From Sipunculus nudus (lineage: Eukaryota; Annelida; Sipuncula; Golfingiida; Sipunculidae), in NCBI GenBank assembly GCA_026874595.1, contig CM049310.1:32615558-32679557 (forward strand): 64,000 nucleotides of DNA, in the 5' to 3' direction. The notes under the pieces are model-generated. The model searched no databases and was not told the DNA's origin. It saw only the letters and a list, made by a program, of their open reading frames with translations. Positions 13,101 through 49,777 of the stretch are shown piece by piece. The position numbers were made by a program, and so were the translations under genes. Position 1 is the stretch's first letter. Each line of letters starts with the position of its first letter.

Positions 13101-14382
13101 GGTAGACCTGGCAGGTGGGTAAACCAGGCACGTGGGTAGGCCTGACAGGTTGGTAGATCAGGCAGGTGGATAGACCTGGCAGGACGATAGACCAGGCAGG
13201 TCGGTAGACCTGACAGGTGGGTAGACCTGGCAGGTGACTAGACGTGCAGGTGGCAGACCTTGCAGAAGGGTAGACCTGGCAGATGGATAGACCCGGCAGG
13301 TGAGTAGACTGGTAGGTGGGTAGCCCTGGCAGACCTGTGTGTAGACTCGGCAGATGAGTAGGCCAGGCGGGTAAGCAGGTCTGGCAGGTGGGTTGGTGTG
13401 CAAGTGGGTAGACATGCGAGTTGCAGACCGGACATGTAAGTAGACCACACAGTGCGTGGGTAGACCTGGCAGGTGGGTAGAACAGGCAGATATGTAGACC
13501 TAGCAGGTGGTAAGACCAGGCAGATTTGTAGACCAGGCAGATAAGTAGACCTCTTAGATGGATAAACCTGGTAGGTGGTTAGACCTTTCGGGTAAGTAGA
13601 ACTGGCAGGCGGGTATACCGGCAGGTAGGTAGACCAGGCAGGCAGGCAGACCTATTGGATTGGTAGAACAGGCAGGTGGGTACCCCCTGGCAGGTAAGTA
13701 GACCTTTCAAGAAGATAAACCAGACAGGAGGGTAGACCTGGCATGAAATAGACCAATCAATGGGTAGACCTGACGGGTAGGTAGACCAGGCATGTAAGTA
13801 GACCAATCAATGGGTAGACCTGACAGGTAGGTAGACCTGGCATGTAAGTAGACCAATCAATGGGTAGACCTGAAAGGTAGGTAAACCAGTGGCGGATCCA
13901 GGATTTAGGAAAAAGGGGGGGGGGGGGGTCCAACCCAGGAGGACTTATTGGAATCCTAAAAAAAAGTCATCAGGTCCAGAAAAGGGGGGGGGGGGTCCAG
14001 GACGCAAAATTTCGTCTAAACCCCTTTAAAAAGGGTTGCTTCGGGTGAAAAAAAAGGGGGGGGGGTCCGGACCCCCTGGAACCCCCCTCTGGATCCGCTT
14101 CTGTAAACAAGGCATGTTGATAGACCTGGCTAGTGGTTGAAATGACAGACCGATAGTAATTTTATCTGCCAAAATAATGTAAAGACAAAACATAATTCAA
14201 TGCTTCGACAAAATCTCAGAAAAATGCACGGACTTCAGTGCCAGCTGACACGAAGCTTTCAAAATATCTGTTTAGGGACGTTACTAGTGCTGTCGCCTAG
14301 TAGCAAATTCCGAACTACTTCCTTGGCTTGGCACTGTTGACTGAACCAGTCAGGAAGCTGGGCTTAAGAGCAAATAGTATTG

Positions 14383-20889: not shown

Positions 20890-23800
20890 GTAAATAACAT
20901 GTATTCGTTTGTAAAAGCTTAATGTCGAAGTTAATAGAGGGAAATGATAAAATGAGGAGCTCTTCACATTTTCATTTTTTCAACTTCTGAAGGCCTAAAC
21001 ACGGCTGTCCACAGTACAGATCTCTCTTCAAGTGGGCACTCACTGGCTGATTAGCCTACTTAGTAATCCTCCTAACAGTGAGACGGACACTCAGTCTACT
21101 GGCTGATCAGCTGAAGCCTGTGCACCACTGATTCGAAATGTCACCAATTCACATTTGATTCCTATGAAATAAACTCGTAATAAACCAGGGTTCACATTCA
21201 TAGTGTTGGGATTGTTATTCATGTCTATATCATAATTAATAAAGCGTTGGAGTTGTAAATATTATTTCTAGTAATTAAGAACTACAACAATCTGTTTATC
21301 ATATTTGTAACACCCTGATTGAATTTCGAATTTATAGTTCTATCCAGTTGTGTGAAACTGAATAATCTGTATTTGGGAAGGGGTTAATTTTATGCCATTC
21401 ATTGTCGTATTTAAAAGAAAACAAAAGCTATGTAAATAGATAAGAAAAAATTAAGATACTGTAGTGTACAAAAATATCAATGGTGTTTGGTTTATATGGA
21501 TATGAACATTCTATGCAAAGACATTAAAAATTTTGCTTTTATATATATTTTAAATTATTTAAAGGGGCCCAATCAACCATACAGCATGTTTTATTAACAT
21601 AAAAAGTAGCTGCTTCCCTTTAAAATAAATCTGTACCTGCAAAAATATTGCCTTGAAACCGTTTGCTTACTCCTATAAAACAGTGGAATGGGCAAGATCA
21701 CACCAACAGATGTCAACATAAACACAGATCATGGGAGCATGTGCATCAAGGAGCCACAACACGTGTTAATCAGGAGATGCCCTGACTGGTTTGGCCCAAA
21801 AAATCTAATACATAATCCTGTTTGCTGAAACATCTCGTTTGAGGCTCACAATTGATCCTCCGGTAACGTGGCCTTGTTATAGTAAACATACACACATAGA
21901 CTGTGTTTACCAACACACAGATCCATAGCAAGGTGTTAAACGGCTGTGTAAGCCTTGTTATAGTAAACATACACACATAGACTGTGTTTACCAACACACA
22001 GATCCATAGCAAGGTGTTAAACAGCTGTGTATGTGGTACTCAGGTTGTCAACTGGGATGGTTTTGCATGGAAACTTCGTATAATGCTAAATTGAACTGAT
22101 AGTGTGAAAGAAAAGACATACTATTGCTCCTAATTATGTCCCTTTAAGAAATTGGCAAAAATTACATTTGGTGATGAATCAACCATGATGATGAAAATAC
22201 AGTTCCCAACTAAATTAGGAAGTTAACTTCATTACTCTAAGATGAAATATAAAAAATTACAAGTCAATCAGCTTTGTTGTATTAGTTGTTGAGGAGGATT
22301 GGCATAAGATGAATTAGTTCTCTGTTTTTTAATTAATTATAGGAATTCAGGAAATACTCCATGACCCTGACACCCAATCTTTAATATCACTTGCTAAAAT
22401 TATAAGTGCTTGTCAATGTGACTGATATGAAGGAACTTATACTGAAACAAGGCAATTTATCACATTACTTGATCTTAAGACTGTTACAATAATAAAACAT
22501 CAAGCTTTTCAAATATGTTAAGCCTTGAGGTAAATGGGATATATATATCCAATATCACTTCTTATCCAGTCACTTAAAAAAAGCAGTTGAGGAGTCTATT
22601 CTTATGGGCTAGTTCAGGAGCATCTGTACTTTATGGGTGACAGTTTTAGAGCACATTTCAGCCCCCTTCTCAGAACAGCCTCTAGATTTTGTACATAGCT
22701 AACAGGACAAAGGTGCCACACCATGGGTAGTATTTAGAATTTGTTATTTATTACCAAAGAGCAGACAGCTGCTTATTTGACTAACGGTAGGCAGGGCAGG
22801 TAAAAAATTGACTTTAAAAAAATTATGATGTTTGACTTTTTTTATTCAAATCGACTTTTATTGATTTAAATCAGCTTATGATAAATTATTAATTTCCTCA
22901 ATTTTTATTAACAAAATAACAGTTTTTTTGTACAGATTATAATGATGGTAATTAAAATTATTTTAGAGAGTAGTAATTAGTATATAAGGAACTAAACAGA
23001 AAGATTTTGTTTTTAAAATTTGAACATTAGCAAATGTGATTTCAAACTAGGCATATCAGACTGATCATGTTCTATAACCCTATAATATGCTTGCTTACTT
23101 ACATTTCATGACCCATTTCCAAACAAAATTTAATTGAAATAATAAATACAGAATAATACAGTTTTTAATTGAACTGTCAGTCTTCTCTATTTAGTTATAA
23201 TTTACAAAAATATGTGCAATGTTGGTTTCTTCACCATCGCTGGGTAATTATGTTATCAAGTAAGATCTTCAAAATATAATTCAGCCTATCTTCATCACAT
23301 GTTGTCAGCATATATAAAATATAATCCAGGATAGGAAATAGACAAGGTACCAGATAAGTACATCTGCTTGGTAATCTGTGGCACCACGGAACAAAACGTT
23401 CACCCAGAATATATGCTTTTTTTTAAAAATTTTTTATATTTTATGGTGAAAGTAACTGCCTCCATTTTAATGCTGAATTTATCTAATTCTGAATCTAAGT
23501 ATGTACATCTGCAGAGTTTCCATTTCGGTTTGGGACTACTTGACAGGGTGGTGGCACTCGCTTCCTATCATTTTTATTAGCTCAGCTGACTGAAAGTCAT
23601 CTGAGCTATAGCGATCACTCTTTGTCCGTCGTCCGTCTGTCCGTCTGTCCGTCCGTTAACCAGGCACAAATCGTAACCGCTGGACCTAGAACCTTGTAAC
23701 TTGGGATTCTGAGAGGTCCATAAAAAATCTCCTTGGAAACCAGAAATTAGGTCTCTGTTACCCATATCCTTCGAGCTATGTGGCCCCAAAGTACCCCCCA

Positions 23801-26800
23801 GAAAAGTCAAAAATTTCATACAAAAACTTCAATATCTCATTAACTACTTGACTGATGGTCATGATTTTTGGCATACATATTGATCATGAGATGTAACATC
23901 ACTTCCTGCAGACTGGTGGCGCCACCTGTATTTTTCGATTTTTTACGAATTTTTTTCTCTATTTTTGAGACCTTTAAAAATGTGAACATCTGTTAACAAG
24001 GCACAAATCATAAAGACTGGACTTAGAATCTTAATTCTTGACACACTGAGAGGTCCATGAAAAATCTCCTTGGAAACCAGAAATTAGGTCTCTGTTACCC
24101 ATATCCTTTGAGCTATGGGGCCCCAAAGTACCCCCCAGAATAGTAAAAAATTTCATACAAAAACTTCAATATCTCAATAACTACATCACTGATCGTCTTC
24201 ATTTTTGGCATACATATTGATCATGAGATGTTTGATCAGTTCCTACAGACTGGTGGCACCACCTGTACTGTTTGATTTTTTTACGATTTTTTCCTCTATT
24301 TTTGAGACCTTTGAGGATGCTGTCATCTGTTAGCATGGCACAAATCGTAACGACTGGACCTAGAATCTTCATTTTCGACACACTGAGAGACCTATGAAAA
24401 GTCTCCATGGAAACAAGAAATTAGGTCTCTGTTACCCATATCCTTTGAGCTATGGGGCCCAAAATTACCCCCCAGAATAGTCAAAAATTTCATACAAAAA
24501 CTTCAATATCTCATTAACTACATCACTGATGGTCATGATTTTCGACATACATATTGATCATGAGATGTTTCATCAGTTTGTGCAGACTGGTGGCGCCACC
24601 TGTATTTTTCAATGTTCACGAATTGTTTCTCCATTTTTGAGACCTTTAAGGATGTAGTTATCTGTCAACAGGGTACAAATCGTAACGACTGGACCTAGAA
24701 TCTTCGTTCTTGACACACAGGGAGACCCATGATAAGTCTCCATGGAAACCAGAAATTAGGTCTCTGTTACCCATATCCTTTGAGCTATGGGGCCCCAAAG
24801 TACCCCCCAGAATAGTAAAAAATTTCATACAAAAACTTCAATATCTCAATAACTACATCACTGATGGTCTTCATTTTTGGCATACATATTGATCATGAGA
24901 TGTTCGATCAGTTCCTGCAGACTGGTGGCGCCACCTGTACTGTTTGATTTTTTACGATTTTTTTCCTCTATTTTTGAGACCTTTGAGGATGCTGTCATCT
25001 GTTAGCGTGGCACAAATCGTAACGACTGGACCTAGAATCTTCATTTTCGACACACTGAGAGACCTATGAAAAGTCTCCATGGAAACCAGAAATTAGGTCT
25101 CTGTTACCCATATCCTTCGAGCTATGGGGCCCAAAATTACCCCACAGAATAGTCAAAAATTTCATACAAAAACTTCAATATCTCATTAACTACATCACTG
25201 ATGGTCATGATTTTCGACATACATATTGATCATGAGATGTTTCATCAGTTTGTGCAGACTGGTGGCGCCACCTGTATTTTTCAATGTTCACAAATTGTTT
25301 TTCTCCATTTTTGAGACCTTTAAGGATGTAGTTATCTGTCAACAGGGTACAAATCGTAACGACTGGACCTAGAATCTTCGTTCTTGACACACAGGGAGAC
25401 CCATGATAAGTCTCCATGGAAACCTGAAATTTGGTCTCTGTTACCCATATCCTTTGAGCTATGGCACTCCAAAGTACAGCTCAGAATAATGGAAAATTTG
25501 ATACAAAAGCTAAAGTAACTGAACAACTAATGCAGAGATAACCATAATTGTTTGCATGGATATTGATCATGGAGTGTTTCATAAGTTTCTGCAGACTGGT
25601 GGCACCACCTGTATTTGTTCGTTTTTTTTTACGAAATTTTTCTGTATTTTTGAGACCTTTAAAGATATGAACATCTGTTAACAGGGCACAAATCATAAAA
25701 AATGGACCAAGAATCTTCATTCTTGACACACAGGGAGACCCATGAAAAGTCTCCATGGAAACTTGAAATTAGGTCTCTGTTACCCATATTCTTTAAGCTG
25801 TATGGGTCCAAAATACCCCCCCCCTCAGAATAATGGAAAATTTGATACAAAAACTGCAGTATTTCAATAACTACAACACTGATGGTCATGATTTTCGGCA
25901 TACATATTGATCATGAGCTGTTCCATCAGTTTCTGCAGACTGGGTGTGCCACCTCTATTTTTTTTCAAATTTTTAAGAATTTTTTTCTTTTTTTTGAGAC
26001 CTTTAAAGATGTGGTTATCTGTCAACAGGGTACAAATCGCAACAACTGGACCTAGAATCTTCATTCTTGTCATGCAAGGAGGCCCATGAAAGGTGCCTGT
26101 GGAAACTTGAAATTAGGTCTCTGTTACCCATATCCTTCAAGCTATAGGACTCCGAAGTATCCCTCAGAATAATGGACAATTTGATACAAAAACTGAAGTA
26201 TCTGAACAACTAATGCAGAGGTCACCATGATTTTTTGCATGGATATTGACCATTAAGTGTTTTTATTAGTTTCTGCAGACTGGTGGAGCCACCTATATAT
26301 TTGTTTCCACCAAAACAAAGTTTTGCGTATACTATGTTTTTGACCGAGTTCCTCCGCCGCGGCAGCGTTCGTTTCCAGAGAGCTCCTTGGAGACTAATGG
26401 ACCGATTTTTCCTAAACTTACACCTATTATCGGGGTCACATGTGAACTGGTGCCTAACCAATTTGCATTGACCTCTGACCTTTCCTCTCTATCCAGTGTC
26501 CATTTGTGGGTCTGTTTCCACTCATAAACCCTCATATCTCGGGAACCGTTTGACCGATCAGGAAATAAAATTGATACAAATGTAGCCCTTGGATTGCTTT
26601 ATAACATACACAAAAAATGGTGGCGCCACCTGTAACCATGTTTGCACAGTGTCCATCTGTTCATCTGCCTTGGGTTAAAATCACTCATATCTCTGCAGTG
26701 AATTGACTAATTCACCTGAAATTTGTCATGTGTATACATCCAGGATAGCTTTCTTGATTTTATGACAGGTGGCGCCACCTACGTTCACGTTCACGCTGAT

Positions 26801-29800
26801 GACATCCAAGCTTATATCTCGGGAACAGTTTGACTGATCAGGAAATAAAATTTATACAAATGTAGCCCTTTGATAGGTCTGTAACATACACAAAAAATAG
26901 TGGCGCCACCTGTAACAATGTTTGCACAGCGTCTGTTTGTTAGTCTGCCGTGGCCTAAAATTACTCATTTCTCTGTAGTGGTTCGACATAACTGCCTAAA
27001 ATTTTGCAGGTTTATACATCGTGGACAGCTTTCTTGATTGTATGACAGGTGGCGCCACCTACATTCTAGTTAACGCTGGACACATCCAAGCTCATATCTC
27101 AGGAACCATTTGACCGATCTGGCCAAAATTGTGCATGTGTTTAGATCTCACATAGGTCTTTATCATACACAAAACTGGAGGGGTTACCTGCAAAGATTTT
27201 TGCACAGTGTTTGTCTGTTTGTCTGCCATGGGCAAAAATCGCTCATATACATGTAGTGGTTTGACTTTTTTGCCTAAAATTTTGCAGGTGTATACAACTT
27301 GGACAGCTTTCTGGATTTGTGGTAGGTGGCACAACCTACATACACATTTAGGCTGCAGACATCCATGCTAATATGCAACATACCTCACTCTATTTCCCCT
27401 TGCCAGTCAATCCATGCCTCACTATCCGATTTTGGCAGATACTTGTAGTCACTTGTCGGTTACCCATATTCTAGTTTTAAAAGTTTACACATTTTTCTCT
27501 ATTTTTGAGATATATAAATACAGACTAAATCTTGGCCTGTTGGTTAATCTGTTTGATGCTTCAGTTGAATGGGTAAATACTACCATTCTGATGATAAAAT
27601 TTCCTTTTGCGAATCTCTTCCCAGTCAGCTGAGCGTCATGACCCATGGGTCACTTGTTTTGTATCCTGGTGTCACCCAGGCCCGGTGTCTACCTGGGTGT
27701 GTAATCATCCCCATTGCTAGGTCATAACACTGAGAAACCCCCCAAAGAAGCACTTTTAGGTGAGCGTTACACGGCTGTGGGGCACAGCCTTCCCATTAAG
27801 CCTGCAGAGCGCTCACCCTGGGTGGGGGCCGACCGTGAAAAACCTCACCACCTCGGCTGAGATTTGAACCCACGATCTCCAAGCTTTGAGTCCCGCGCTC
27901 TACCCCTGAGCCAAAGAAGCCACAGACTATATGCTTGATATCACTGTGGACCCCCTAAAATAATAATTGATATTCTATGCTTTTCATGTTTTCCATAATG
28001 GTCTGCAGGCTTTTCAACATTTAATGAAATGTAAAAATTAGTATGTTACAACTAAGGTAAGTATTATTATTCAATTTTGATTTTCAAGAGTAACAGATAA
28101 TTTTGGCTATAATCTCATTTAACCATTTGAGATGGCTGACAAGTCACAACACAAAGAGTCTTAAAATATTAAAGAAAAAAAATTACCCCTGATCATGCTC
28201 AAAATCTGAGTGGGTGTACTCCAAAGGAATTCAACTTTATACCTTTTCAGTTTTCTTAGGAAGTGCCACTCTTGATGCTGTTGCTATTAAATTACCTGGC
28301 CAGCTGGCCATAAAATATTTTCCTTTGCAGCACTGTCTTCTTTAATTATGGTCAATTATTATTGTTTGATACTTTTTATTTTGCAGTGGTGGTGCTGAAC
28401 TACTGTTTGACAAAATTAAGACCCATGAAGTAAGCCTTCCAGATGCTACAGATCCATGTAAGAAACTCAGTTTATATCAAAACTGATCCCAAGGAGGTTT
28501 TAACTTATGTGAGACTGGAGATCCAGATCCAGGGAGCTCTGTCAGCCAAGTGCTAATTTAAATTAAGATGAGAAAAGCCCATTGATGCTACTGGTATTAT
28601 GTGAATATTATGCTGCAGTGGCATCCAGGGTTTGATTTTATCCGGATATAACTCGTTTAATCCAGGACAATGGATAAAACTGGTTTAATCCAGATCTGTC
28701 CAGATTATACAGGATTAAATTGGATTAAACTAAGGATCATCTTGTTAAATTTAATTAAATTATCATTTTTGCTTATCTAGATAAAAAATCTGGTAGGTTT
28801 ATTAATATATTAACAATATATAAGCTTGATATCCTATTGGCAAATTCCTCCAGGTTCATCTTTCACTGTTGGCAGTAGCCCTTGTAGCTTATGCTCAACA
28901 AACACCAGGATGAGACTCATGAGAGCAGTCCCTTTGTCTTCTATGTTACTCTTGTGGCTGGTGGTCAGTTTCTCATTAGTATGTATTATCTTTATAGCAT
29001 CATCCTAAGCCATAAAAAAATTATATATAGACAAAGGGCGGGCTACAGGGTGACTTTTGCAGCCCAATTGTCAACAATTTATAGGAAAACTAGTGTTCAG
29101 TGGAGCAGGATTCCTCAATGACTTTGCTCTGGCCACCATGACCGGCTGGACATGAAACAGTCATCAACTGTTGCTGCTTTAGTAAACATGCCTAACCAGT
29201 GGCAAAAGGGACAATAAACCACACTACATCCAAACATTCAGAGAAACCAACTGGGGCAAGATAGTTTTTTAAGTATTTTATTGTTCGCGTCTTGGAGGGA
29301 ACCCTCATAAATTTTGGACAGCTGATGTCACTGTATATCTTATTCCATTTATGCAATAAATGACTGGATTATGTACATTTCTCACAGATATAAGAAAATA
29401 TGAAAGGACATTATTTGTTACCACATTTATTTAGCTTTTTTATAGTGTGATGTACAAAATCGGTGATGTTTTAGAAAATCTTTCTATGGATGAGAAATAA
29501 TTTAAAGTGAACTTGTTATTAAGATAGGCATCACTCTAAGTAGTGATCTGTGACAAGAAATGTTTGTTTTATGTATAACTATTTGGTAACATAATAATTC
29601 AGTCAACTAGACAAAATCATTTCTTATTAGAACTTCATTATTCTACAGTGGAAAGCTAAATTTAATATAACATGTCAATTTCACAGACAATATACACCCA
29701 AACTTTGGATAAAACCTGTTTGTTTAACTGGATAAAACCTGTTTTATCCGATCCAGATTTATCTGGATGAATCCAGTGGATTAAATCAGCTGTGGATAAA

Positions 29801-32196
29801 ACTGCCAACCCTGGTGGCACATTCATTGTATTGCCAGACAAAGTCTGGAGATACTATGGTTAAGGCATGGTTGCACCACCGCCACAGAGATTTAGTTTGC
29901 ACACAATAACTCAAAAAATATTTCACGGATCTTCACCAAACTTGACATGTGCATAGATACGGGTGAGAGGACAAAGCCTATCATGACCTTTAATAGGTGA
30001 GTGACCTTTACCTTGAATAGGTCCATTTTAGGGGAAAATCACACAAATTCTTAAATGTCTCAATAAATCTTGCATGGAATGATCCAAAAATGAAATTGAC
30101 CCAAGATCTTCGATAGTGTTGTCATGTACCAGAAACTGGTTGCACAACCTATTATACTTTTCTTGTTTTCATGCCTTTTAATACCCCCCACATTGCCACT
30201 TAACAATACTGTGAGCATTATAAGTAAAAAACTAATAGACAGATTTCTTTCATATTTTGCATATACATAGACATGGGTTATGGGATGCTGTATATTTGAA
30301 TTTGTGTCATGACCTATCCTATGAGAGAGGCCTTTACCTTGAATATTGCCATATATGGTGAAAATCACACAAAATCATAAATTTCTCAATAAGGATGCAT
30401 GGATTGATCCAAAATCAAGTGACGTAAGAGCTTGGATAGCTTTGTCTTTTGCGGAAGACAGGTGGCGCCACCTTCTGTCTTTCTCTTGTTTTTGAGCCTT
30501 TTAATATCCTATCATTGCCACTTGACATTACTGTGAGCAGTAAAAGTCTAAAACTTAGAAATATTGGGCTGAAATGGTGCATGTACATTGATCTATGATA
30601 CCTCCATTTGTATTCAAGACTTGTTGAGACATCTGCAATCATTTTGCCGTGACGTACATTTGTACATGTGCATTGGGTGAAAATTGCTCATATCTCCGGA
30701 GTGGTTCATGGTATTGGTCTGAAATTTGACAAGTCCATCCATCTTGGAAAGTTTTCTTATTAACCTGACAGGTGGCGCCACCTACCTTTCCGTTTTTGTA
30801 GAATAAATTAATGCCCTTTTCTGAGGAGTGATTTGCCCTATTGGCCTGAAATTGTGCCTATCCATAGATCTTGCACTCCTACATCTTTTACTCAAGACTG
30901 GTGACGCCATCTGCAATCGTTTTGCTCTGGTGTCCATCTGTTCATGTGTTTTTGGTGAAAATTGCTTATATCTCCAGAGTGGTTCAAGGTATTTGTCTGA
31001 AATTTGGCATGTCGATCCATCTTTGAAAGTTTTTCTCGTAAACCACCTAACTACCATTTTTACAGTATTAATTTATCCCCTTTTCATAAGAGTGATTCTC
31101 TGTATTGGCCCCCATATTTGGTGAAAAATATTGTTTCTCAAGTTGATAGATGTTCCATAGTCACTTGCCAAGTATCAGTTTATGCTGCTGAAGATGGGGT
31201 GGACAATACGTAAAGGGGGGGGGTTAATTGTCTGGCGATACTGTGGCACCTGCAGTGCCAAGAAATATCTAGTTAACGAAGGTTTCACATCGTAGGTTCA
31301 CTGCTTGATGTTTATGATAAAATATTTTGTAGCAAATGGCAACTTACGATTGTTCCAATAATTATCTTAAAATCACAAAACAAACACAAGGAGAATATAA
31401 CTTAACTGACAAAGCAGTTGGGTCTCCAAAACGAACGCGTCATTCCGAAGTGAGCCCAGCTGTATCAAATAACATCTTGTCTGTGCCAGTGGATTCTCAG
31501 TTTCATGACACCTGTCAGCAACAATCAACATTGCCATTCTTGAGTTGCATCTCCAGTCTCATATATAACCTTCTTGCTGATCCTTAGATTTTTATGTAAT
31601 GTTTCAATAATTGTAATGTTTTAATTATTATAACAATAATGAAATATATTTCCAAGTAAGCATACAGAATCCTTGGATCTCTTTTAAATCATTTCATTAT
31701 TGATACAACTGTGGAACCTTGAGTTACAGACAGTTGTGTGACAATATTGTTTTTGCTTGTAATATTGAGGAATGTACTGCTGGCAGGCTTGTTTTACGTG
31801 TGGATAACGGGGAGGTGTCCATATTAGGGAAATGATGAATTCTTTAATGCAACATTACAAATGTGGCATTGAGAATGTATCTTTATGTATTGGTTTATAC
31901 AGGTGTACATTTTTTCAGGGACAATAAAGAGCCTCCTGGTCTGGATCAAAGACAATCTATTGAAAGAAAGACCAGAACTCTTCATACAAGGTGACACAGT
32001 GTAAGTGAGGACCAATATCACAGAAGTGAGCAAAAATCAGGAAGGCAACTGTCACTGATGTTCTGATTTTATTTAATACCAATTATATGTACTAACAGTT
32101 GGCTGTTTACCACTGGTTTATTCCAGTTTCAGGGTAAATACCTTAGCAACGGTCTTATTTAGGGAGAAAAAATATTAATAGGGAGATGTTTAAGTC

Positions 32197-32253
<57 letters not shown>

Positions 32254-32670
32254 CATATAAATATATGTTGTTACGAAGAGAAATTGCTCAGGGGAAAATC
32301 CTGGGCCGATCCGGGGTTCGAACCAAGGTCGGTGGTGTACAAGTCCGGCGTACCAACCGCTTCGCTAAAAAAGCAAGCTTCACTAGCGAGACAGTTCGGT
32401 CTGCTTTTATGTCACCCCTTAACACACCCTCTCTTAAGAGCGTTCTGCTATCAGTACAAGACTAATTATCCCAGGAGTCACACTTTGGTTAACCGTCATG
32501 TTAGACGAGCCCCAATTTTGTTACAAAGAGAGATTGCTCAGGGGAAAATCCAGGGCCGATCCGGGATTTGAACCCAGGTCGGTGGTGTACAAGTCTGGCG
32601 CACCAACCGCTTCGCTAGAAAAGCAAGCTTCACTAGCGAGACAGTTTGGTCCACTTTTATGTCACCCCGT

Positions 32671-32727
<57 letters not shown>

Positions 32728-35700
32728 TATATTATATTATATTAACATCACCATTAGCTTTTGGAGTTAAAAAAAAAAGTTACCAAATATTATGTGATAA
32801 AACCTGTTTACTTGCATAGAATGAACAAATCAAACATTCATTCAGGTCAGCACTGGGAGTAAATACTCATGCAATGATGCAGTCTTCTTTTGCAATGAAT
32901 AATATGTTAAAATCGCCAATTTTACATTTTGTTTCAAGTTTCAATTTCAGATTAACACTTTTTTTATAAACAGTGATTGGATGAATGGTGCTTAGCTGAA
33001 TTAGTGTTTCTTCAATGAAGTCATCCATAGATTACTGAATGACTGTGCCATTAATGCTGGATTCTGAATTATATTTCTGTGAAAATTACCATAACTAGTT
33101 AAATGATAGTGTAATTGACTTAGGACATTTAATTTTATTTGAATTAGTAAAACTTTGATGTTTTACTTAACAAAAATATAAATAGTTCTAGTGTTTTCTG
33201 TTTTATATTAATACTTTAGAGATATGCAATTTTTATTTGTATTTTCAGAAGGCCTGGTATACTTGTGTTGGTGAATGATGCTGATTGGGAACTAATGGTG
33301 AGTTTTAATGTTAGTAAAAATATGAGCTCAGTGCTTTTTAGCTCAGCTGACTATAAGTCATCTGAGGTATAGGTATGGTGCTTTGTCCGTCGTCCATCCG
33401 GTCGTTTGGCTGTCCAGTCGTCCCTTAGCAGGGCACAAATCACAACCGCTGACCCTAGAAGCCTATAACTAAAAATCTAGAGAGGTCCATAAAAAGCTCC
33501 ATGGAAGCCTGAAAATAGGTCACTGTGACCTATATCCTCCGAGCTACGAGGCTTGTAATTACCCCCAGGAATAATAAAATATTTGATACAAAACCTCCAA
33601 TATCTTGATAATTAATGCATGGATTGTCATGAATCTTGTCTCTAATATTGACCATGACTAGTTTTGTCACTTTTTGCCGAAAAGTGGTGCCGCCACCTGT
33701 ATTTTTTAAGCGAACCTGTGAGCTTATGTGATGGTGTGGCGTCGTCTATACGTTAACCCATACTATCTTGAAAACGGCAAGAGTTAGCATCACAAAATTT
33801 TATGCAAAAAATTAGTCCTCTAAAAAACTCTATCGGATTTTGCTTATTTTTTGGCTAACTGCATGTTTAGCGAACCTGTGAGCTTATGTGATGGTGCGGC
33901 GGGGTCCGTCGTGCGTCCTGCGTTGTACGTCGTGCGTCGTCTGTACGTTAACCATAGCTATCTCAAAAATGGCTGGAGCTAGCATCACCAAAGTTTTTGC
34001 AAATAATCAGTCATCCAAAAAACTATATCAGATTTTGTTTATTTTTTTTCTGACTGCATTTTCTTAGATTTTATAGGGAAAAAGCTAAAAAAGATTTAAA
34101 AATCTTCTACTCCGAAACTGTCCAGCCAAATTGTCCTATATTTCACAGAAATGATCCCTGGAACAATCTCTCTCAAGTTTGTTCGAAAGGTTCCAGTTCA
34201 GAGATTTTTGACCGAGTAACAGGAGGTTAAACTTTGTCATCTGTCCAAAAAAGCATATTAAAACGGCTGGAGCTATCATCACCAAATTTTATGCCAATGT
34301 TGGTCACATAGGTCATATCTGAAATTGAGGTATTGGTGGCGCCACCTGCATCGACTTTTTTGGTACGGGGTCATCAGTGCCTATATCACACTGAGGGCTA
34401 CAAAAAACTTCTCTGCTGAAGCCAGGGGCCAAAATGTTTAATATTGCACAGAAATGATCCTAGGATAGTGCTTTCTGAAATTTGTTCAAATGGTCTCTGT
34501 TCAGTGACTTTTGGCTAAGTTATGGAAAGCTGAATTTAGTCATATGCCATAACAGCCCATTTTAGTTCAATGGCTACAAAGATCTTCTCAAAAACATTGG
34601 GCCAATTTCTTAAATTTCACACATTTATTATCCTCAGATGTTGATAAATCAAGTTTGTTCAAGTGGTTTTGGTTCAGTGCTTTTTAGCTGAGTTACGGGA
34701 AGCTGAACTTAGCCAGTTTGCTGTATCTTCTTATATGAGTTATAAACCTGCGAAACGTTTTTCGACTGTTGCCACTGAAGCCAATTTGTTAATTGGGAGA
34801 TGATCCCTACAATAATTCTTATAATAATGTCATTAATGGTTCCACATGAATGATTTTTGGCTGAATTATGGAGATTGAATTGAGTCATTTTACCATATAT
34901 GTTAGCTGTGTGATGCTCAGTGACAGTTACATCTAGCCTGGCACCAGTTTATCAGCATTTATTACATCATGCCACTAGACATTTAGATTTCAGGTTATCT
35001 TTGGTTAATATTGACAAGAGAGTTTTTTTAATTCCTTTTAAAAAAATTAGATTTATGATTTAAGTAATTCTTCATACCAGGCAATGGGATATTCATGGAT
35101 ATTCATCTCTCTGTGGCAATATAAATACAACTGTACATGGATTATAAATTATTAGTATCCAAACTTAAATTAATTCAAGAATTTGCCATCAATAAGATAT
35201 ACCTGTATTTTAATTTTGCATTCAGTATGCATCTGTAATAATTTTACATGTATTCCTGATTTATTTTTTATAAAAAGTCAGCTGTAAAGCATTTTGTATT
35301 GGGAAAATTAATTTCAAAGTTACTTCAATTAGGGACCACTTTTGTGTACAGATTGCAGCACTTGGTGTTACCATTGGCAGATTTGTTCATCTGCCTCGGG
35401 ATAAAATCACTCATATCTCTGCATTGGTTGGACTTATCCACCTAAAATTTTGCATGTATACATCCTTGACAGCTTTCTTGATTTTATGACAGGTGGCACC
35501 TCCTACATTCCTGTTTAAGCTGCAGACATCCAAGCTCATATTTCGGGAACCGTTTGATCAGTTGGGCCAAAATTTTGCATGTGTATAGATCTCCCATAGC
35601 TCATTATCTTATGCTAAAAAGGTGGCGCCACCTGCAACCATTATTGTACAGCGTCCATTTGTTCATCTGCCTTGGGATAAAATTACTCATATCTCGGCAG

Positions 35701-38700
35701 TGGTTTGACTTATCTACCTGAAATTTTGCAGGTTTATACATCATTGACAGCTTTCTTGATTTTATGACAGGTGGCGCCACCTACATTCACATTTATCCTG
35801 CAGACATCCAAGCTCATATCTCAGACACCTTTTGACTGATTGGGCAAAAATTTTGCATGTTTATAGATCTTACATAGCTCTTTATCATACGCAAAACTGG
35901 TGGCGCCACCTGCAACCATTTTTGCACAGCGTCTGTCTATTTGTTTGCCATGGGACAAAATCACTTATATCTCTGCAGTGGTTTGACATATCTGCCTAAA
36001 ATTTTGCAGGTTTATTGTCTTGGATAGCTTTCTGGATTTTGTGGAAGGTGGCGCCAGCTACATATACATTTATGCTGCAGACATCCAAGCTCATATCTCC
36101 GGAACCATTTGACCGATTGGGCAAAAATTTTGTGTGTTTATAGATCTCACATAGCTCTTTATCATATGCAAAACTGGTGGCGCCACCTGCAACCATTTTT
36201 GCACAGCATCCTTCTGTTTGTTTGCCATTAGATAAAATCACTTATATCTCGGCAGTGGTTTGACATATCTACCTAAAATTTTGCAGGTGTATACACCTTG
36301 AATAGATTTCTGTATTTTTTTTGCAGGTGGCGCCACCTACATTTATGTATACACTGCAGACATTCAGGCTTATATCTCAGGACTGGTTTGACATATCCCC
36401 CTGAAATTTTGCATGTGTATAGATCTCACATATCTCTTAATCATAAACAAAATTGGTGGTGCCACCTGCCTCCATTTTTGCACAGTGTCCGTCTATTCAT
36501 CTGCCTTGGGTTAAAAACACTCATATCTCTGCATTGGTTGGACTTATCCACCTGAAACTTTGCATGTGTGTACATCCTTGACAGCTTTCTTGATTTTATG
36601 ACAGGTGGCGCCACCTACATTCACGTCTAAGCTGCAGACATCCAAGCTCATATCTCGGGAACCGTTTGACCAGTTGGGCCAAAATTTTGCATGTGTATAA
36701 ATCTCCCATAGCTCTTTATCATACACAAAACTGGTGGCGCCACCTGCAACCATTTTTGCACAGCCTCTGTTCATCTGCTGTTGAATAAAATCACTCATAT
36801 ACAAGTAGTGGTTTGAATTATCTGCCTAAAATTTTGCACATGTAATCAATTTGGACAGCTTTCAGGATTTTGTGGTAGGTGGCGCAACCTACATACACAT
36901 TTCAGCTGCAGACATCCAGGATATTATGCAACACACCTCACTCTATTTCCCCTTGCCTCTCAATCCATGCCTCACTTCACCCGTCCCACTCTGATTTTTG
37001 CGGATACATGTAGTCGCTTGTTGACTACTCGTATTCTAGTTTTTGTGTTGTGTGCACCCATGCCAGAATTTCAGCAGTGATGTTTGTTAAATTGTTTCTT
37101 GTTCTTAGTGTTTAGTACTTGCATTGTTCATATACATGTTACACATGTTCTTGAAAAGTAATGGTCCAGCATTGAAGCATTATACCTGGTGTAAACTTAT
37201 TGCACAGGTTCGCATTAGGCCTGTAGGCCTTGTCTTAGATTTTATTAGGAAAAGGCTTTAAAAATCTTCTAATCTGAAACTGTTAATCCAATTTGTCCAA
37301 TATTTCACAGAAAAGATTTTGTGAACAATCTTTCTCAAGTTTGTTCGAATGGTTTAAGTTTTATGATTTTTGGCGGACTTCCAGGAAGTTGAACTTAATC
37401 ATCTGTCCAAAAAAGCATGGTAAAATTACAATCTCAGAAATGACTGGAGCTATCATCACCAAATTTTATGCCAATGTTGGTCACATGAGTCTTATCTGAA
37501 ATTGAGGTATTGGTGGCGCCACCTGCATCAGCCTTTTTTGTACAGGGGTCATCAGTGCCCATATCACACGGCTACAAAAAAATTCTTCTCCGAAACCATA
37601 TGGCCAAATTGTTTAATATCACACAGAAATGATCCTAGGGTAGTGCTTTCTGAAGTTTGTTCAAATGGTCTCAGTTCAGTGACTTTTGGCTGAGTTATGG
37701 GAAGCTGAATTTAGTCATATGCCATAACATCCCATTTTAGCTAAGTGGCTACAAAGATCTTCTTCTCAAAAACCACTGGGCAGAATTCTTAAATCTCAAA
37801 TATTAATTATCCTTAGATGTTGATAATTCAAGTGTGTTCAAATGGTTTTGGTTCAGTGATTTTTGGCTGAGTTATGAGAAGCTTAACTTAGCCATTTTGC
37901 TGTATTTTCCCATATGAGTTATAAACCTGTAATACGTTTTTCGACTGAGGCCACTGAGGCAAATTTGTTTAATATTTTACAAGAATAATCCCCTGAATAA
38001 TTCTTATAATAATTGTCTTTTATGGTTCCAAAGAATGAATTTTGGCTGAATTATAAAGATTGAATTGAGTCATTTTACCATATATGTAAGCTGTGTGAAG
38101 CAGATACATCTAGCCTGGCACCTGTTTATCAGCATCCATTGCATCATGCCTCTAGACATTTAGATTTCAGGTTATCTATGGTTAATATTGACAAGAATGT
38201 TTTTTAAAAGCTTTTAAAAAATGTAGATTTATGATTTTAGATATTCCTTATGCCAGGCAATGTTTACAATCACTGGTATACAGCTATCTGTGGGTATATA
38301 AAGATGGCTGTACATGGATTATAAATAATAGGTATCCATACTCAACTTAATTCAAGATTTTGCCATCAGTGAGATGTATCGGTATTATTATTTGGCATTC
38401 AATATGCATCTGTAGTAATTTTTAGCGAATCTGAGGGCTAAGTTGCAGATTTTGTGGTGTCGCCTACATTGACCTTTTTTATGGGCAAAAACCTCTTAAT
38501 TTTAGCCTCTTTCAGCTTAAAATGTTTATGATGAAACTGTCAAGTTGAATCGTTCAATTTTTCAAAAGAATTATCCTAGGACATGGTTCTTACAATCATA
38601 TCAGAAAAGCTTTTGTTGGTCTTGTGGCCATTATTATGTCTATTTCAAACTGAGGACTGCAAATTATTGTTTCAATTATAACTTCTGTAACATTGCACAA

Positions 38701-41700
38701 AAAATATTCTTTGGTGGCCTTTGTTCAAGTTTACTTGAATGATTTTTGGCAGAATTATTGGACCTTTACCAATGAAAGGACTGCATCTTTTATTATTCTA
38801 GATATTTTGATAAGTTTATGAATATGTCATCTTAAAAAAAAGCATTTTAGCCAAAGTCTTTCAGTATGTGTAAACAGATTCACCAACACTCCAAGATTGT
38901 GTCTTTATCTTTAAATAGGTTGAGAAACTGCCAACTGTTTCAGATTTGGCAACAGAGTTCATTCAGTGCAGCCAGATATAGGTCAAGAGTTCAATCAGTG
39001 CAGCCAAGCACAAGGCATGTGATCACCTCATGGGTGACATGTGATCACCTCATGGGCGACATGTGAACACCTTATGGGCACCATGTGATCATCTCATGGG
39101 TGTCATGCCCCTCAGGGCAGGGCCCCTGCATGAGCTTATGCAATGGTGTGGCTACTATTTCAGACTTGGCAACAGGCTAGAGGTCAGTCTCGATCGATTT
39201 ATAGCTTTGGCAGACTGCCAACTGTATCAGATTAGGCAACAGGTCAAGAGTTCACTTGGTACAGCCAGGTATGGGTCAGGAGTTCACTCAGTGCAGTAGC
39301 TGCATTCTATTTATAGTGTTAGCAGACTGCCCACTGCATCAGATTTGGCACCAAAGTTCAACCTGGATCTATTTATAGCTTTGGCAGACTGCCAACTGTG
39401 TCAGATTATGCAACAGGTCAAGAATTCACTCAGTCTAGCCAGGTGCAGGTCATGAGTTCACTAAGTGCAGTAGCCTGAGCCATCAAATTTGTCACAGTTC
39501 ACTCCTTTCTCACCTAAGCCTGGTCAGCCCCATGCATCAGACTCAAGGTAATTTTGATGTATTGGCCTGATATTTTGACCTGTCTATGTGTCTTTGATGG
39601 CTTTCTCGTTAACAAGACAGGTGTCGCCACCTACAGTGACTTTTGCACAGTGTTTGTGCCTGCTTATTTCTACAGAGGAATTTGATATATCAGCCTGAAA
39701 TTGGGCATATATATACATATCGAATAGCTTTGTCATATACAAGACTGGTGGTGCCACTTACAATAATTTTTGCACAGTGTGTGTGTCCCTGCTTATTTTC
39801 AGGAGGGGTTTAATATATCAGTCTGAAATTGGGCATATGTATATATCTCTGATAGCTTTGTTGTATACAAGACAGGTGGTGCCAGCTACAATCATTTTTG
39901 TATTGTGTGCACCCATGCCAGAATTTCAGCAGTGATGTTTGTGTAATTGTTTCTTATTCAAAATGTTTAGTACTTGCATGGTTCATATACATGAGAAGAA
40001 ATGGTCCAGCATTGAAGCATTATACCTGGTGTATTTCCCAATGCACAGGTTCGCATTAGGCCTGTAGGCCTTGTTCTTTTTTTTACGAATATTTTAAATT
40101 TTTTTTTACTATAAAATGACAAGTGGATGCCCTATAGTTATCACCCTGTCTGTCTGTTCATCTGTCTGTCTGTCTGTCTGTCTGTCCATCCATCCATTCA
40201 CACAAATTTGTTTCCAGATGATAACTCCAGGTTGGAATGGCATATGGATTTTAGACATGACTTACACATGGCCCATCACTAAAGAAAGAACCTGTATGAT
40301 TTAAGGGTCAAAGGTCAAGGTCACAAGACTCACTTATTTAAAAAGATTATGGCTGCATTTTAAGCCAAGCTTTTCGTCCCAAACTTTCCATCTTGCACAT
40401 TTAGCTGACTTGCCAGTATAGGGAGAGCATAAATAAATTTGGGGTCACAAGGTCAAAGGTCTGTTCACAAATTAGTTTCCAGATGATAACTCCAGTTTAG
40501 TCAGACATATTGGTTTCAAACTTAAATTATATATGGCTTACCACTAAAGTAAGAACCCTGTCGATTTTAGGATCCAAAGGTCAAAGGTAATGGTCACAGG
40601 ACCAATTTCTTTAAAAGGAATGTGTATGCATTTCAAGCCAAACTTTTCATCGCAAAGCTTCCATCTTCAGGATATTACTTACCTGCCAAAAGGGGATGAT
40701 TCTTTTTGATTTGGGGTCATAGGGTCAGAGGTCAAGGTCACAGTGCCCATCCGTTCACAAACTAGTTTATCGATGATAATTCTGCTTTGGCTAGACAGAT
40801 TTGCTTCAAACTTTATTTATTAATGACCCACCACTTAAGTAACAAAAATTTTGATTTTCAGGGTCCAGAGGTCAAAGGTGAAGGTCACAGGAGCCATATC
40901 TTTAAAATGATTATGGATGGAATGTAAATCAAACTTTTCATCCCAAACATTCCATGTTTCGCACATGGTTTACTTGCCCAAAGTAGAATAAATCTGTAGA
41001 TTTTGAGATTACCTGGTCAGAGGTCAAGGTCACTGGACCGGCATTTTTTAGAAGAATGTTACATAATCTAAATGCTACAAGTTCAGGGATAATAAGTTCT
41101 CAGATTTTTTGGTCACAAAGTCATTGGTTAAGGTCATAAAAATTTCTTTAAAATATCATAATAGACAAATACAGCTGAGCGTCGAGACCCATGGGTCCCT
41201 AGTTTTATATTATCTATATCTGGATACTCATTAAACATGCTTAACAGTGGCTGAAGCATCAAAACAGTAGTAATCAAAAGTAAGCATCTCAATTCATTAT
41301 CATTGTGCTTTAAAATGGTGCATATGTTCACATTTAAAAAAATAAATATATTCCCTTTTAAGGGCAAAGTCAAGCATACGGATGGACTTTTTTCCCCTCA
41401 AAATACATAAGGAAATCCATTTTAAATATATATATCTCCCTTGGTAGACAAAAATAGTGGAATACATGGGTGAAGTTACAACCTACACTTAACTGCTCAC
41501 AAACTAATTTCAACAAGCTTTTGTTTTGAATGATGAGACAACTACTTTCACAATTCTGTCATAAGTTAGTATGAAATTTGTCTGGCTTTGAAACTTTGCA
41601 TTATACAGCATTTCAAGTATTTAAAGTTGTCATCTTTGGCAATATTGGTTCATTAATATGAAATATAATTTGTGTTCTCTGGCTGTCTTCTATGGAATTA

Positions 41701-44858: not shown

Positions 44859-46800
44859 ATGGAGAACCCCACTTATTGTGGCTCTTGTGGTTCTTAATCC
44901 CGGTTGGGACTCCCACCCTCCTTGTTTTCGTTGCCGCTCCAACATTGACTCCTGCCGTGTTCCGGCTGATCCTTGTTTTCACTGCCAGACTGGGACGTCT
45001 GACCAGTGGGCCCTTTCCCGGATTGGGCTCATTCCCCGGTACTTGGGGGTTCAACCTCCTGTATTCCATTGTCTGACCCCTTGGTTGTCTCCGAGGGGGT
45101 GGGGGGGGGGGGGCCTACCCTGGTTGACCGCACCACGGCCGTGCTGCGTTCACCGTCCGTTCCTGTCACCTCTCCAGTGGTTTAGACAGTTATATCGTTG
45201 AATTCTCCTTCACGGAAACGGAATTCTTTCCCCGTTCCCGCGGCCTCCCGTTCTGCCAGCATCTGCCTATTCCATATTACATTTATTGTCCCAGGTTTGT
45301 TAATCACTTCTGTCGGATCTCGACGCTTCGTCTAGACCCGGTTCTGTCCGCCCGGCGCCCTCGCGGGCGCCCCAGTACCTTCTCCCCGGCCATTCTCGTC
45401 GCCGGCTCCTCGCCGGATTCCTTCCTTATCCCCGGGGCCGGCTGGAGCCGTCCCGCTGGATCGCCCGGACCTTCCTGGTGTGCAGGTAAGTGCGTCGGTC
45501 CCTACTGCCTCTATTCGGGGCTGCCGGCCTCGCCTCCGGTTCCTCCGTCTGCCGTCGTTACTTACCGGCCGGCCGGCTCTTTTTTTCAGTTACCCTCTGC
45601 TGTGCGGCCTGCGGCTCCAGTTCCTGTGCCTTCCTGGATGGTTCCTGCTGCTGCTCATTCCCCGGCTTCCTGTTTCCAGCCTCCCCTGTCTTCGGCTCAG
45701 CGGGTCTCTCTGGCTCCCCCTACACGGGGTTCTCCAGGGTCCCCGACTGCTCAGTCAGCCGATCCCGCCCTGGCATCAGACCAGTGGTCGGCGATCGCGC
45801 TGCGCCGCCAGGCTTGGCGTCCGCGCAAATCTGCGCTTATGGAACTGGAGGCTACCTCCACACCGGAGGCTAACCCTAGTGGTCCGAAGTTCCGTAGGTA
45901 CAACCTCGGACTTCCTCGGCGTTGGCAGCCGGTTCTTCTTTGAATCCTGGCCCCTTCATTCGCCCTCCGCCGCGCCCGCCGTGTGTCTGGTATTACTGAC
46001 CGCACGGGGGATCTCTCATGTGAGCGCCCTGCGGTGGTCTCGGGGTCTCGCTCTACTGGGGCCCCGCTTCCGCCGGGTTCGGATACACCTTGGTCCCCCG
46101 GTACCCTCGGGAGTTCCCTTGGGTACCGGGCTCCCGGGCTACCTGTTCGTTCGCTTGCTCCCTTCTCCTGAGCTCCCGGATGTTCAGTCTGCTCCGCTGC
46201 GCCTCGTGTCCGGCCTGGCACAGCCGTTTGCGGAGGGTCCGTCTTTAATTCCATCCTCTGTCCAGTTTTCCGATCGTCACCTGTCGGATCTGGAGGGGCT
46301 CGGCCGGCATGCAGCCGGTATGGTTTACGACTTGCAGGCTGTCCCTTGCTTGCTAGCCGTTTCAGGACACGCTCACTCTCCCCGACATATGGCAGGCTTC
46401 TGCCCATACTGGCGCTGTGTTCCATTCAGGTCGTTGGCGCCCGGTTGTAAATTGCATCTTGTTACGCCGCCCGGCTTGCATTCAGTCATTTATGCACTTA
46501 CGGCCGCGGCTTCTTGGGCGGAGTTAACCGAGCTTTATTCTCTGCCTTTCCCGGTTCCCTGCTGTTTGGCGGCCAATTACGGCCTCTCTTTGACCGCCAA
46601 GGCGCGCGCTCGGATCGTCAGGCCCGCCTCCGCTCGACCTCCCTTGCGCCTCGGCCTTCCTTCCGCGTTCCCCGCCTTCTGCCTCCAGTTGCGGCTTCCG
46701 CTCAGCTGCGTCGCGCATCTGCTACCTCGTCACATCCTTCAGGACGTTCCAGCCGTTCTCCCCCTTTCATGGTCGCTCCTCCCAATGAGGTTCGACCAAG
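44859..46800 (+). pseudogene. DIRS copy A gag-like ORF1, frameshifted
   Basis: ATG at 44859 sits in a near-perfect Kozak context (GCCCGCCATGG). A frameshift follows. The next frame (44905-45015) has PPCFRCRS, then DSCRVPADPCFHCQ and a W, the cysteine cluster typical of DIRS gag N-termini. A G tract at 45098-45113 breaks the frame again. Downstream, a 444-codon frame (45480-46814) and another frame (45602-45943) each contain protein-like stretches, so I cannot decide one continuous reading. Both are shared with copy B. Confidence 0.6.
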
Positions 46801-48180
46801 AAATGACTCTCTAGCTCTGGTCGGCGCTTGGCTCAGCGACCGTTTTCCCGCGTGGGCGGGTTTCACCTCCAAGCGGTTAATTCTCAGCGCCCTACAGTCT
46901 TACGTTTAGCACACTCCGCCTCCGTCCGATCCGGCAAAACGCCTCGCTTGGCGGAGGCCCTTCAATCTATGTTAGACAATCGGGCTATTTCGAGGTTTCC
47001 CTATCCACCGTGGGGTTTCACTCACGCCTTTTCTTGTTCCCAACCCGCACGGCCGTTGGCACCCGATCATAGACCTGTAGCGCCTCAATTCGTCAATCCG
47101 TCCGCCCCCGTTTCGGATGTTCATTCTCCATGCTGTCCTCCGCATTGTTTGGTGGATGGCTTAGGCGTTCTCATATAGACCTTATGGTTGCCTATTTTAA
47201 CGTTTCCATTTCGGGTCCATCCGTCCGTTCAGGATCCCCGTGGCCCCCTGGAATTTACCATCCTTGTTCACACGGTCCCGAGTTCTCTCCTTTCACAGGG
47301 CATTTCTGTGCTCCCTTCTCTGGACGATTGGCTGGTCCATGCGGCCGATCGCTCCCTCTTACTGTCGCATCGCTCCCGGGTTCTCAACTTACTTCGGAAC
47401 CTCGGCTTCCTGGTCAATGCGGAGAAATCTCTTCTCACTCCCACCCAGTCCCTCCAATTTCTCGGTGTCACGCTCGATTTTGCGTCCAGCACTGCGTTGC
47501 TCCTGCGCGATTTTGCTCTCCCGCTCCGCCGCCTAATTCGTTCCTTTCTCACGCGGCGCCGTGTAGACTCGCGCACAGCAGCTTCTCTCCATGGTGCTCT
47601 CAACTGGGCCACGTCTTTCATCCCGTTCGGCCAACTGTACCTCCGTCCGATTCAGTCTATCTTGCGCCGTCATGGCCTTCTCCAGTTAACCTCGGTTCAT
47701 CCTCCGCTTTTCCCGTTTTGGAGCGCCTGGCGGTCCCTTCGTCCCTGGATGGACCTTTCTTTTCTCCTGCGCGGCGTTCCTTTTTCCGGGGATGTCGCTT
47801 GCACCATCTATACCGATGCGTCTCTCCTCGGTTGGGGGGCCCATCTCGCCGATCTTCGTGCTTCCGGGATATGGTCCCCGTCGGGACGTCTGCTCCATGT
47901 CAATTTCCTCGCCCTGCGTGCCGTCTGTCGCGCGATCTCCCACTGGTCTCCCCGCTTGATCAGACTTCCCATTCTCGTCCGGCCCGACAATCCCACGGTT
48001 GTGGCATATATCACCAAGCAGGGCGGTACTCGGTCTCCCTCGCTCATGCAGGCGACTTACCTTTTGTTCGATCTATGCCTCTCTCTCCGGGCATCAGTTC
48101 GTGCATCCCATCTTCCGGGCGTGTCGAACATCCTAGCGGACGCCCCTTCCCGTCATCCGGCGTCTCTTCCTTCCCCGCCG
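46800..48180 (+). pseudogene. DIRS copy A reverse transcriptase / RNase H remnant
   Basis: RT start is seen in frame 46800-46909 (VGAWLSDRFPAWAGF). It is followed by frameshifts, an in-frame TAG, motif A as IDLMVAYFN (near 47174) and the active-site box as SLDDWLV instead of YLDD (near 47320). The stretch between motif A and the box is too short by roughly 25-30 codons, an internal deletion. RNase H follows: YTDASLLGWGAHL, FLALRAV (the family has LEL, so the catalytic Glu is lost), NPTVVAYITKQGG and LPGVSNILADAPSR. Confidence 0.85.
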
Positions 48181-48639
48181 CTCCTTCCGCTCCCGGTTAT
48201 TCGGAGTGTTTTCGCTCGCCTGGGGCGGCCGGAATTCGATCTGTTCGATTTTCCGTCCCCCCCCGTTCTCGTGCCTTCCGAGACCCGTCTACGTCCCCTC
48301 GCGACCGTCTCCCCCACACGCCGCCGTCTGGGTGGTCTCCCCAGTTTCTCTTGCGTTTCCGGCGCCTCCTCTCCTCCGCCGTGTCCTTCTCCGCTTGTCC
48401 CGCGCGGACCAGACTACCCTGCTTCTCATCCTTCCGTTTCAACCTGCGGCTCCATGGTTTCCTCGGTGGCGCTCGCTTCTCTCTCGCCCCCCGCTTATAC
48501 TACCGCTCTGCCTCGCGCTCCCGTCATTCCCTCGAACACGTCGCCCGTTTCTGTCGTGCCCTCTATGCGCATGGGTGCTCTCATCGGACACCTCAAGGAT
48601 CAGGGCATTTCAAGTCCGGCTGCTCTCCATGCCTCGGCT

Positions 48640-49625: not shown

Positions 49626-49777
49626 TAGGTGAGGTCCTACAATTTTCCAGGCCATCTTATTCCTCTACGTCGGTTCCGCCACCGACGTCGTCTGCTGCTC
49701 CATCACAGCACTGTGATTCCTCGTTCCAGCGTTACAGGTAGGTGCTCCCTCCCCAAGGCATGTCTGTTTTTTTTCTC

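Follow-up and report, generated by a model that had tools for sequence, protein, structure and literature searches.

A palindrome kept in the central tandem repeats of HINE-like transposable elements of Sipunculus nudus

A 12-base palindrome, GGTGGCGCCACC, is a persistent part of the central tandem repeats inside HINE-like elements that are spread through the genome of Sipunculus nudus. It recurs in a 64,000-nucleotide stretch of contig CM049310.1 (assembly GCA_026874595.1, positions 32,615,558 to 32,679,557; hereafter the window, numbered from its first letter). The carriers are non-autonomous Helentrons with the Pearl/Cg_HINE architecture. In three classes of repeat unit, which we number 0 to 2, the non-CpG letters of the palindrome are constrained in lineages that multiplied and free to decay in inserted copies. 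This pattern points to purifying selection on multiplying element lineages, followed by neutral decay after insertion. The best reading, to which we give about an even chance, is that the palindrome is a recognition site, probably for a protein, needed for amplification of the HINE or of its arrays.

The palindrome is in large excess. The window holds 18 exact copies, spanning 23915-37523, and 100 dinucleotide shuffles of it hold none. A first-pass annotation of the window had listed 18 exact starts and had 17 of them right; the remaining one, given as 36177, lies at 36176. Across the 1.4265-Gb assembly (153 contigs) there are 111,729 exact copies, about one per 13 kb, against 14 for a reversed-pattern control. 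Allowing up to one mismatch gives 218,178 sites (575 for the control), so that 106,449 sites differ at exactly one letter. TG and CA forms of the central CpG account for 45,683 sites genome-wide (22,806 + 22,877), as expected from CpG decay.

The palindrome is also in phase with its tandem units, and the first-pass observation of a repeated, in-phase palindrome is thus confirmed. Spacings cluster at 148-149, 129-131 and 335-340 bp, the first two together making a dimer of 278-280 bp. All 166 pairs of neighbouring palindromes less than 400 bp apart share the same orientation.

We compared the window with twenty 10-kb loci (L009-L028, contig C1, 0.13-0.87 Mb) chosen from the list of exact palindromes. 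Clustering the flanks of 172 sites with at most one mismatch gave nine groups with at least two members, plus three singletons. In the models of the nine classes, N stands in place of the palindrome, which makes the detection of units independent of it. These models returned 263 non-redundant matches; 34 were dropped for insufficient flank, leaving 229 units with both flanks.

The palindrome is exact in seven of the nine class consensuses and differs by one central base in the other two (CA in class 4, TG in class 8). The letter that precedes it is A in all nine. By contrast, the right flanks of different class consensuses have identities of 0.37-0.75 (shuffle means 0.44-0.50), and several pairs are at shuffle level. 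Classes 3, 7 and 8 are near that level against most other classes, and several of the others share a weak common layout downstream of the palindrome. Judged from their letters, the classes with this layout may belong to one old repeat superfamily. The array types distinguished in the first-pass annotation (337-, 278- and 146-type) look like distant relatives inside HINE-like elements. Within class 1 we also noted a subfamily with GGTTG in one half-site (window 36878 and 27325; L013 4074, L016 7567, L025 6556, L026 642 and L014 2703). Genome-wide this form, GGTTGCGCCACC, occurs 3332 + 3381 times, and the other half sometimes has the matching CAACC.

The palindrome changes more slowly than the DNA around it. 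In 225 units of classes 0-6 from 21 sequences, scored against the class consensus, its ten non-CpG positions mismatch in 139 of 2216 cases (0.063) and the non-CpG flank columns in 4103 of 26,769 (0.153). The ratio is 0.41 (locus bootstrap 0.32-0.51), a 2.4-fold slowdown. Base composition is not the reason, because G/C flank columns are not slower (mismatch 0.175). By class, 0 to 6, the ratios are 0.33, 0.33, 0.35, 0.86 (0.31-1.45), 0.51 (0.27-0.70), 0.20 and 0.45. The window, which we did not select for the palindrome, gives 28/392 against 713/4827 on its own. The palindrome had been described as kept exactly while the rest of each repeat drifts. Exactness is too strong a word, since only 18 of the 40 window units found with the masked models of classes 0-6 are exact, but on average the contrast is real. 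Had there been no genome-wide excess and equal rates in palindrome and flanks, a role would have been in doubt; instead the counts are 111,729 to 14 and the relative rate is well below one.

The central CpG behaves differently from the other ten positions. That such a site should decay in AT-rich DNA, as the first-pass annotation argued, is half right. It does decay: TG and CA forms number 45,683 to 111,729 intact copies, and the central CpG mismatches in 92 of 444 cases (0.207), a higher rate than at the ten other positions. It decays less, however, than flank CpGs (367/1143, 0.321). On the trees described below (classes 0-4), it changes 17.8 times on internal and 35.2 times on terminal branches (10 columns), flank CpGs 72 and 86 times (24 columns), which is 0.59 per column relative to flank CpGs on internal branches and 0.98 on terminal ones. 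The central CpG may therefore share the constraint of the other positions while decaying faster than they do.

The constraint differs with the branch on which a change falls. For 214 units of classes 0-4 we built trees from the flanks only and counted parsimony changes per column. The ratio of palindrome to flank changes is 0.50 on internal branches and 0.97 on terminal branches. For classes 0 to 4 in turn, internal ratios are 0.38, 0.17, 0.46, 0.90 and 0.81, and terminal ratios 0.83, 0.92, 0.82, 1.46 and 0.91. As a null we drew 5000 random sets of flank windows shaped like the palindrome. For classes 0-2 we count 12 changes of the palindrome on internal branches; the flank windows average 40.9, and none of the 5000 draws is as low. 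On terminal branches the palindrome has 36 against 46.0 (P 0.17). All five classes together give 26.2 against 59.0 internally (0/5000) and 60.8 against 68.4 terminally (P 0.27).

A count that needs no tree agrees. Taking a variant as shared if it occurs in at least two loci and private if it occurs in one, the shared:private numbers for classes 0-2 are 13:23 in the palindrome and 331:212 in the flanks (Fisher p 0.0046); for classes 0-4 they are 25:36 and 499:349 (p 0.0072). Nearest pairs with less than 6% flank divergence show no constraint at all (palindrome 24/806, flanks 299/10264, ratio 1.02).

The first-pass annotation had proposed selection or recurrent homogenisation, and the latter deserves a hearing. 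Exact copies could simply be young or gene-converted, and the palindrome would then need no role. Arrays are indeed in phase and alike, young pairs lack constraint on the palindrome, and local duplication does occur, as the common flank of two of our loci (L021 and L022) shows. Homogenisation would, however, affect a unit along its entire length, whereas the palindrome changes 2.4 times more slowly than its flanks; it persists in classes with flanks no more alike than shuffles; and in classes 0-2 the deficit is found only in internal and shared changes. We favour selection over homogenisation or recent amplification alone because the unit is not equally conserved throughout and because the slowdown in classes 0-2 is restricted in this way. 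Homogenisation by itself we consider quite unlikely.

Several observations weigh against our best reading. Classes 3 and 4 have a weak internal deficit (ratios 0.90 and 0.81; shared:private 12:13 against 168:137), and the consensus ratios of these classes, 0.86 and 0.51, have the intervals given above. Nearest-neighbour ratios do not fall steadily from one divergence bin to the next (1.02, 0.57, 0.88, 0.82). All twenty loci outside the window lie in a single stretch of a single contig and were chosen for exact palindromes, a choice that should favour intact recent copies, hence if anything mask terminal decay, and that could also favour palindrome-keeping lineages. Finally, seven stretches with Helentron genes (L029-L035, 3.4-10 kb, L032 lying within L033) contain neither the palindrome at up to two mismatches nor HINE ends, though they may stop short of their own termini.

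The arrays that carry the palindrome are parts of transposable elements. Alignment of the window with the twenty loci places the 337-bp and 278-bp arrays at the centre of an element with fixed ends. At the 5' end a mostly T-rich edge is followed by AGCTCAGCTGACT, its inverted copy and a GTCC/GTCT microsatellite; at the 3' end AGTCAGCTGAGC comes first, then the palindrome TGACCCATGGGTCA, then T-rich DNA. The boundaries are abrupt, and the outer flanks are unrelated in all compared loci except L021 and L022. Counting diverged copies, the sample contains 55 such ends in 50 groups with distinct outer flanks.

These are the features of a HINE. A 5' subterminal inverted repeat (subTIR) lies near the terminus with a complementary inverted repeat (AGCTCAGCTGACT ... 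AGTCATCTGAGCT at 23579-23607, also in the loci, and at 33340 in the second element). A microsatellite (23623-23653) comes after the 5' module and central tandem repeats (23655-26302) come next. A 3' subTIR, AGTCAGCTGAGC, precedes the short terminal palindrome TGACCCATGGGTCA (together 27623-27652). As to the mode of insertion, most aligned copies have T-rich edges, the flanks are unrelated, and at the occupied sites compared no target-site duplication is evident by eye. The arrays of the window do not fit classical satellite DNA, whose long homogeneous arrays are not bounded by transposon ends; they have few copies (2.4-7.8), in spans that do have such ends. One element in the window is complete (about 23577-27660); a second span (33335-41206) has a 5' and a 3' end, and fragments occur between and after the two:

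23577..23637, plus strand: 5' end of the first HINE-like element, with a T-rich edge, from BLAST of the ends; an equal end stands at unrelated flanks in L015, L020, L021, L026 and L028.
23579-23591, plus strand: 5' subTIR AGCTCAGCTGACT of the first element, with the inverted copy AGTCATCTGAGCT at 23595-23607.
23623-23653: GTCC-type microsatellite of the first element (Tandem Repeats Finder, TRF), which starts within the 5' end and runs to about 23653.
23655..26302, minus strand: 337-bp central array of 7.8 copies (TRF), with eight class-2 units found by the masked model; palindromes exact at 23915, 24589, 24924 and 25261, degenerate in the other four.
26534..27374, minus strand: 280-bp central array of 3 copies, in which class-0 and class-1 units alternate; exact palindromes at 26619, 26768 and 27048.
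27605..27660, plus strand: 3' end of the first element, with subTIR AGTCAGCTGAGC (27623-27634), terminal palindrome TGACCCATGGGTCA (27639-27652) and T-rich terminus; by alignment and BLAST of the ends it recurs in L014, L020, L021/L022 (common flank), L026 and L028.
30138..31100, minus strand: partial HINE-type modules with units of classes 6, 4, 5 and 0; exact palindromes at 30461 and 30771.
33335..33372, plus strand: 5' end of the second HINE-like span, with subTIR at 33340, inverted copy at 33356, then microsatellite.
34335..34346, minus strand: one class-3 palindrome, within a module (34056-35245, about 1.2 kb) that recurs, 82% identical, at 37227-38422.
35384..36918, minus strand: 278-bp array of 5.5 copies, class-0 and class-1 units; exact palindromes at 35621, 35770, 35899, 36176, 36326, 36604 and 36733.
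37512..37523, minus strand: again one class-3 palindrome, within the later copy of that 1.2-kb module.
39591..39900, minus strand: 128-bp array of 2.4 copies, class-4 units; three degenerate palindromes (1-2 mismatches).
41172..41206, plus strand: 3' end of the second HINE-like span, with CAGCTGAGC, GACCCATGGGTC and a T-rich terminus.

The palindrome is missing from one array type: a 288-bp tandem array inside or near HINE spans (window about 40201-41037, L020 6120-8187, L009 7879-9728) has no site within three mismatches; the class models match it only at E 1.7 or worse.

In L009-L028, 44 of the 46 flank-distinct HINE ends lie on one strand (44 vs 2), and the four ends in the window lie on the strand opposite to that majority. 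Same-strand clusters could arise if new elements insert into the T-runs of older ones. Coherence of orientation is not clear over 0.14-13.9 Mb of C1 (82 marks; runs P 0.23; of six distance bins, the one at 1 Mb has P 0.03) or at 3.06-3.70 Mb (19 loci, the weak L064 omitted; P 0.17). Of 60 small loci, 59 could be oriented, and both orientations occur.

What kind of site is this? In classes 0-2 both halves of the palindrome are slow: from the flank mean one would expect about 20 internal changes in each, and they show 5 and 7. Together with the constant preceding A, this suggests two GGTGG half-sites. We favour recognition by a protein that would aid amplification of the element or array, because compensation across the dyad, folding and flank switching at the site are all unsupported; the protein and the step are what we infer. 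AGGTGG(CG)CCACC would then be a sequence-specific recognition site, most likely of two GGTGG half-sites bound by a protein that helps amplification. A candidate protein would act in transposition, as the Rep/helicase of the element or a host partner, or in array expansion. Copies that lose the palindrome would persist in the genome but would rarely found new lineages. A site used in replication of the element, one of the roles suggested in the first-pass annotation, fits the element-level pattern as a putative role; the interpretation given in that annotation is, as a whole, partly supported.

A perfect dyad might instead act as single-stranded structure, for example as a hairpin or cruciform in second-strand initiation of a rolling-circle intermediate. 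Among 22 units with two non-CpG changes, four have a paired, symmetric double: GGTTGTGCAACC in two class-1 units and one class-6 unit, and GGTGTTGACACC in one class-4 unit. These doubles are suggestive of compensation, but genome counts for the two doubles we tallied, one symmetric and one matched asymmetric, do not support it. By arithmetic from genome counts, the symmetric GGTTGCGCAACC occurs 140 times against 101 expected under independence (1.4 times), and the asymmetric GGTTGCGACACC 146 times (control 22; 124 net) against 96 (1.3-1.5 times), so there is no excess specific to symmetry. Nor does the 12-mer fold unusually well (-1.3 kcal/mol, z -0.32); three whole units fold at z -0.56, -0.96 and -1.45. 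We give a structural role little credence.

Alternatively, exchange or slippage at the palindrome could create and expand the arrays, as proposed for CENP-B-box-like motifs of nematode satellites. Classes 0-2, which form arrays, are strongly constrained and class 3 weakly so, and there are precedents in two articles (PMC3694981; PMC5139131, where junctions fall inside the 12-bp palindrome of phBglII400). At 238 sites, however, flank types switch at the palindrome in 0.029, 0.024 and 0.006 of similar pairs (three thresholds), not above the other four split points (0.015-0.12, 0.014-0.062 and 0-0.053). Discordant flank pairs are not concentrated at the palindrome, as a CENP-B-box-like junction motif would have them. 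We regard a recombination motif as unlikely.

The element might also have spread a host regulatory site. The palindrome has partial letter matches to E2F and CTCF consensus motifs (E2F-like TGGCGCCA, CTCF-like AGGTGGCGC), and the genome has 111,729 copies. Inserted copies nevertheless decay at about the flank rate. The upstream letters of the CTCF motif are absent from all nine class consensuses, and the central CG, presumably important for E2F, is the most variable of the twelve positions, though less variable than flank CpGs. Use by the host thus seems very unlikely. Spread by viruses is rejected: 28 viral contigs hold a 17-letter pattern around the palindrome, once each, and none matches the nine class models at E 0.01. 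Rfam yields no match in the window at gathering scores.

Recognition by an amplification-helping protein can be taken one step further. AGGTGG(CG)CCACC might be an iteron-like site for a trans-acting factor, either the Helentron replication machinery or a captured host protein, of which array-bearing HINEs must display several to be mobilised. We offer this with a small degree of belief. If true, it would explain why HINE-like elements carry satellite-like arrays at all, a question that is, to our knowledge, open for Helentron-type elements. We know of no internal, repeated cis-signal for rolling-circle transposition in animals, although we made no search aimed at one. The mutation pattern of the motif, constrained in shared ancestry and free in private copies, is that expected of a part which array-bearing elements need to spread. 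The palindrome is thus a concrete, testable cis-element and a handle for finding its protein, and it may connect the mobility of transposons with the origin of dispersed satellites.

The genome also contains Helentrons. It has at least 143 Helitron_like_N matches, marking Helitron-type Rep genes, and L033 contains an intact frame (2106-8813) of 2235 amino acids with DUF6570, OTU protease, Rep, PIF1 helicase and endonuclease domains. This frame also has a run of short, STPR-like N-terminal repeats, just below cut-off. As autonomous partners of the palindrome-bearing HINEs, L029-L035 are not linked to them by ends or palindrome in the stretches covered.

The window has other repeats as well. Two tandem copies of 7.2 kb (44891-52072 and 52060-59218) are 98% identical, largely GC-rich and strand-skewed; they have RVT_1 reverse-transcriptase matches, one slightly over and one slightly under the curated cut-off. 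They read like a putative DIRS-type retroelement. Each copy has one GGTGGTGCCACC (51011 and 58157) in class-8 context. A degenerate 17-bp minisatellite (GCAGGTGGGTAGACCTG, about 64 copies) occupies 12807-13887 in a G-skewed stretch, and an 81-bp unit is tandemly duplicated at 21871-22031 (98% matches).

Parts of this picture are familiar. Satellite-like arrays are known from oyster HINEs, where a single element can combine two array types (PMC7492417); also known are divergent bivalve satellites that keep short motifs and conserved palindromes in related elements (PMC5139131). Such motifs and palindromes have been proposed to aid repeat spread (PMC12628747; PMC3694981). In the article text covered, we found neither GGTGGCGCCACC as a repeat motif nor a branch-wise selection test on such a motif. 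The 12 letters occur in one chitinase paper, and we found no literature on helitrons, satellites and molluscs that carries ggtggc.

The CENP-B-box-like motifs of root-knot nematode satellites (PMC3694981) resemble our case in that a short motif is kept among dissimilar satellites. They are tied to monomer junctions, whereas we see no enrichment of switching at the palindrome. The molluscan BIV160/Cg170 family, DTC84 and phBglII400 (PMC5139131) have divergent monomers that keep two conserved motifs; in DTC84 a palindrome is conserved near the repeat junction, and phBglII400 has one of 12 bp. This likeness is one of description, and we saw no branch-wise selection test in the text covered. DINE-1/HINE elements (PMC4067079) share with ours the subTIRs, the 3' palindrome, apparent insertion in T-rich DNA, tandem repeats in some copies and Helentrons in the genome. 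In the text covered, their palindromes are described at the ends, whereas here an extra one stands in each central repeat. A close likeness is that to Cg_HINE/Pearl of oysters and other bivalves (PMC7492417, PMC8268682, PMC11136912). Like the elements of S. nudus, these have a 5' subTIR, a complementary inverted repeat, a GTCC-type microsatellite, central satellite-like arrays, a 3' subTIR with terminal palindrome, two array types in one element and genome-wide dispersal. A common 12-bp palindrome in their central repeats is not described in the text covered; in S. nudus, many divergent array classes share one.

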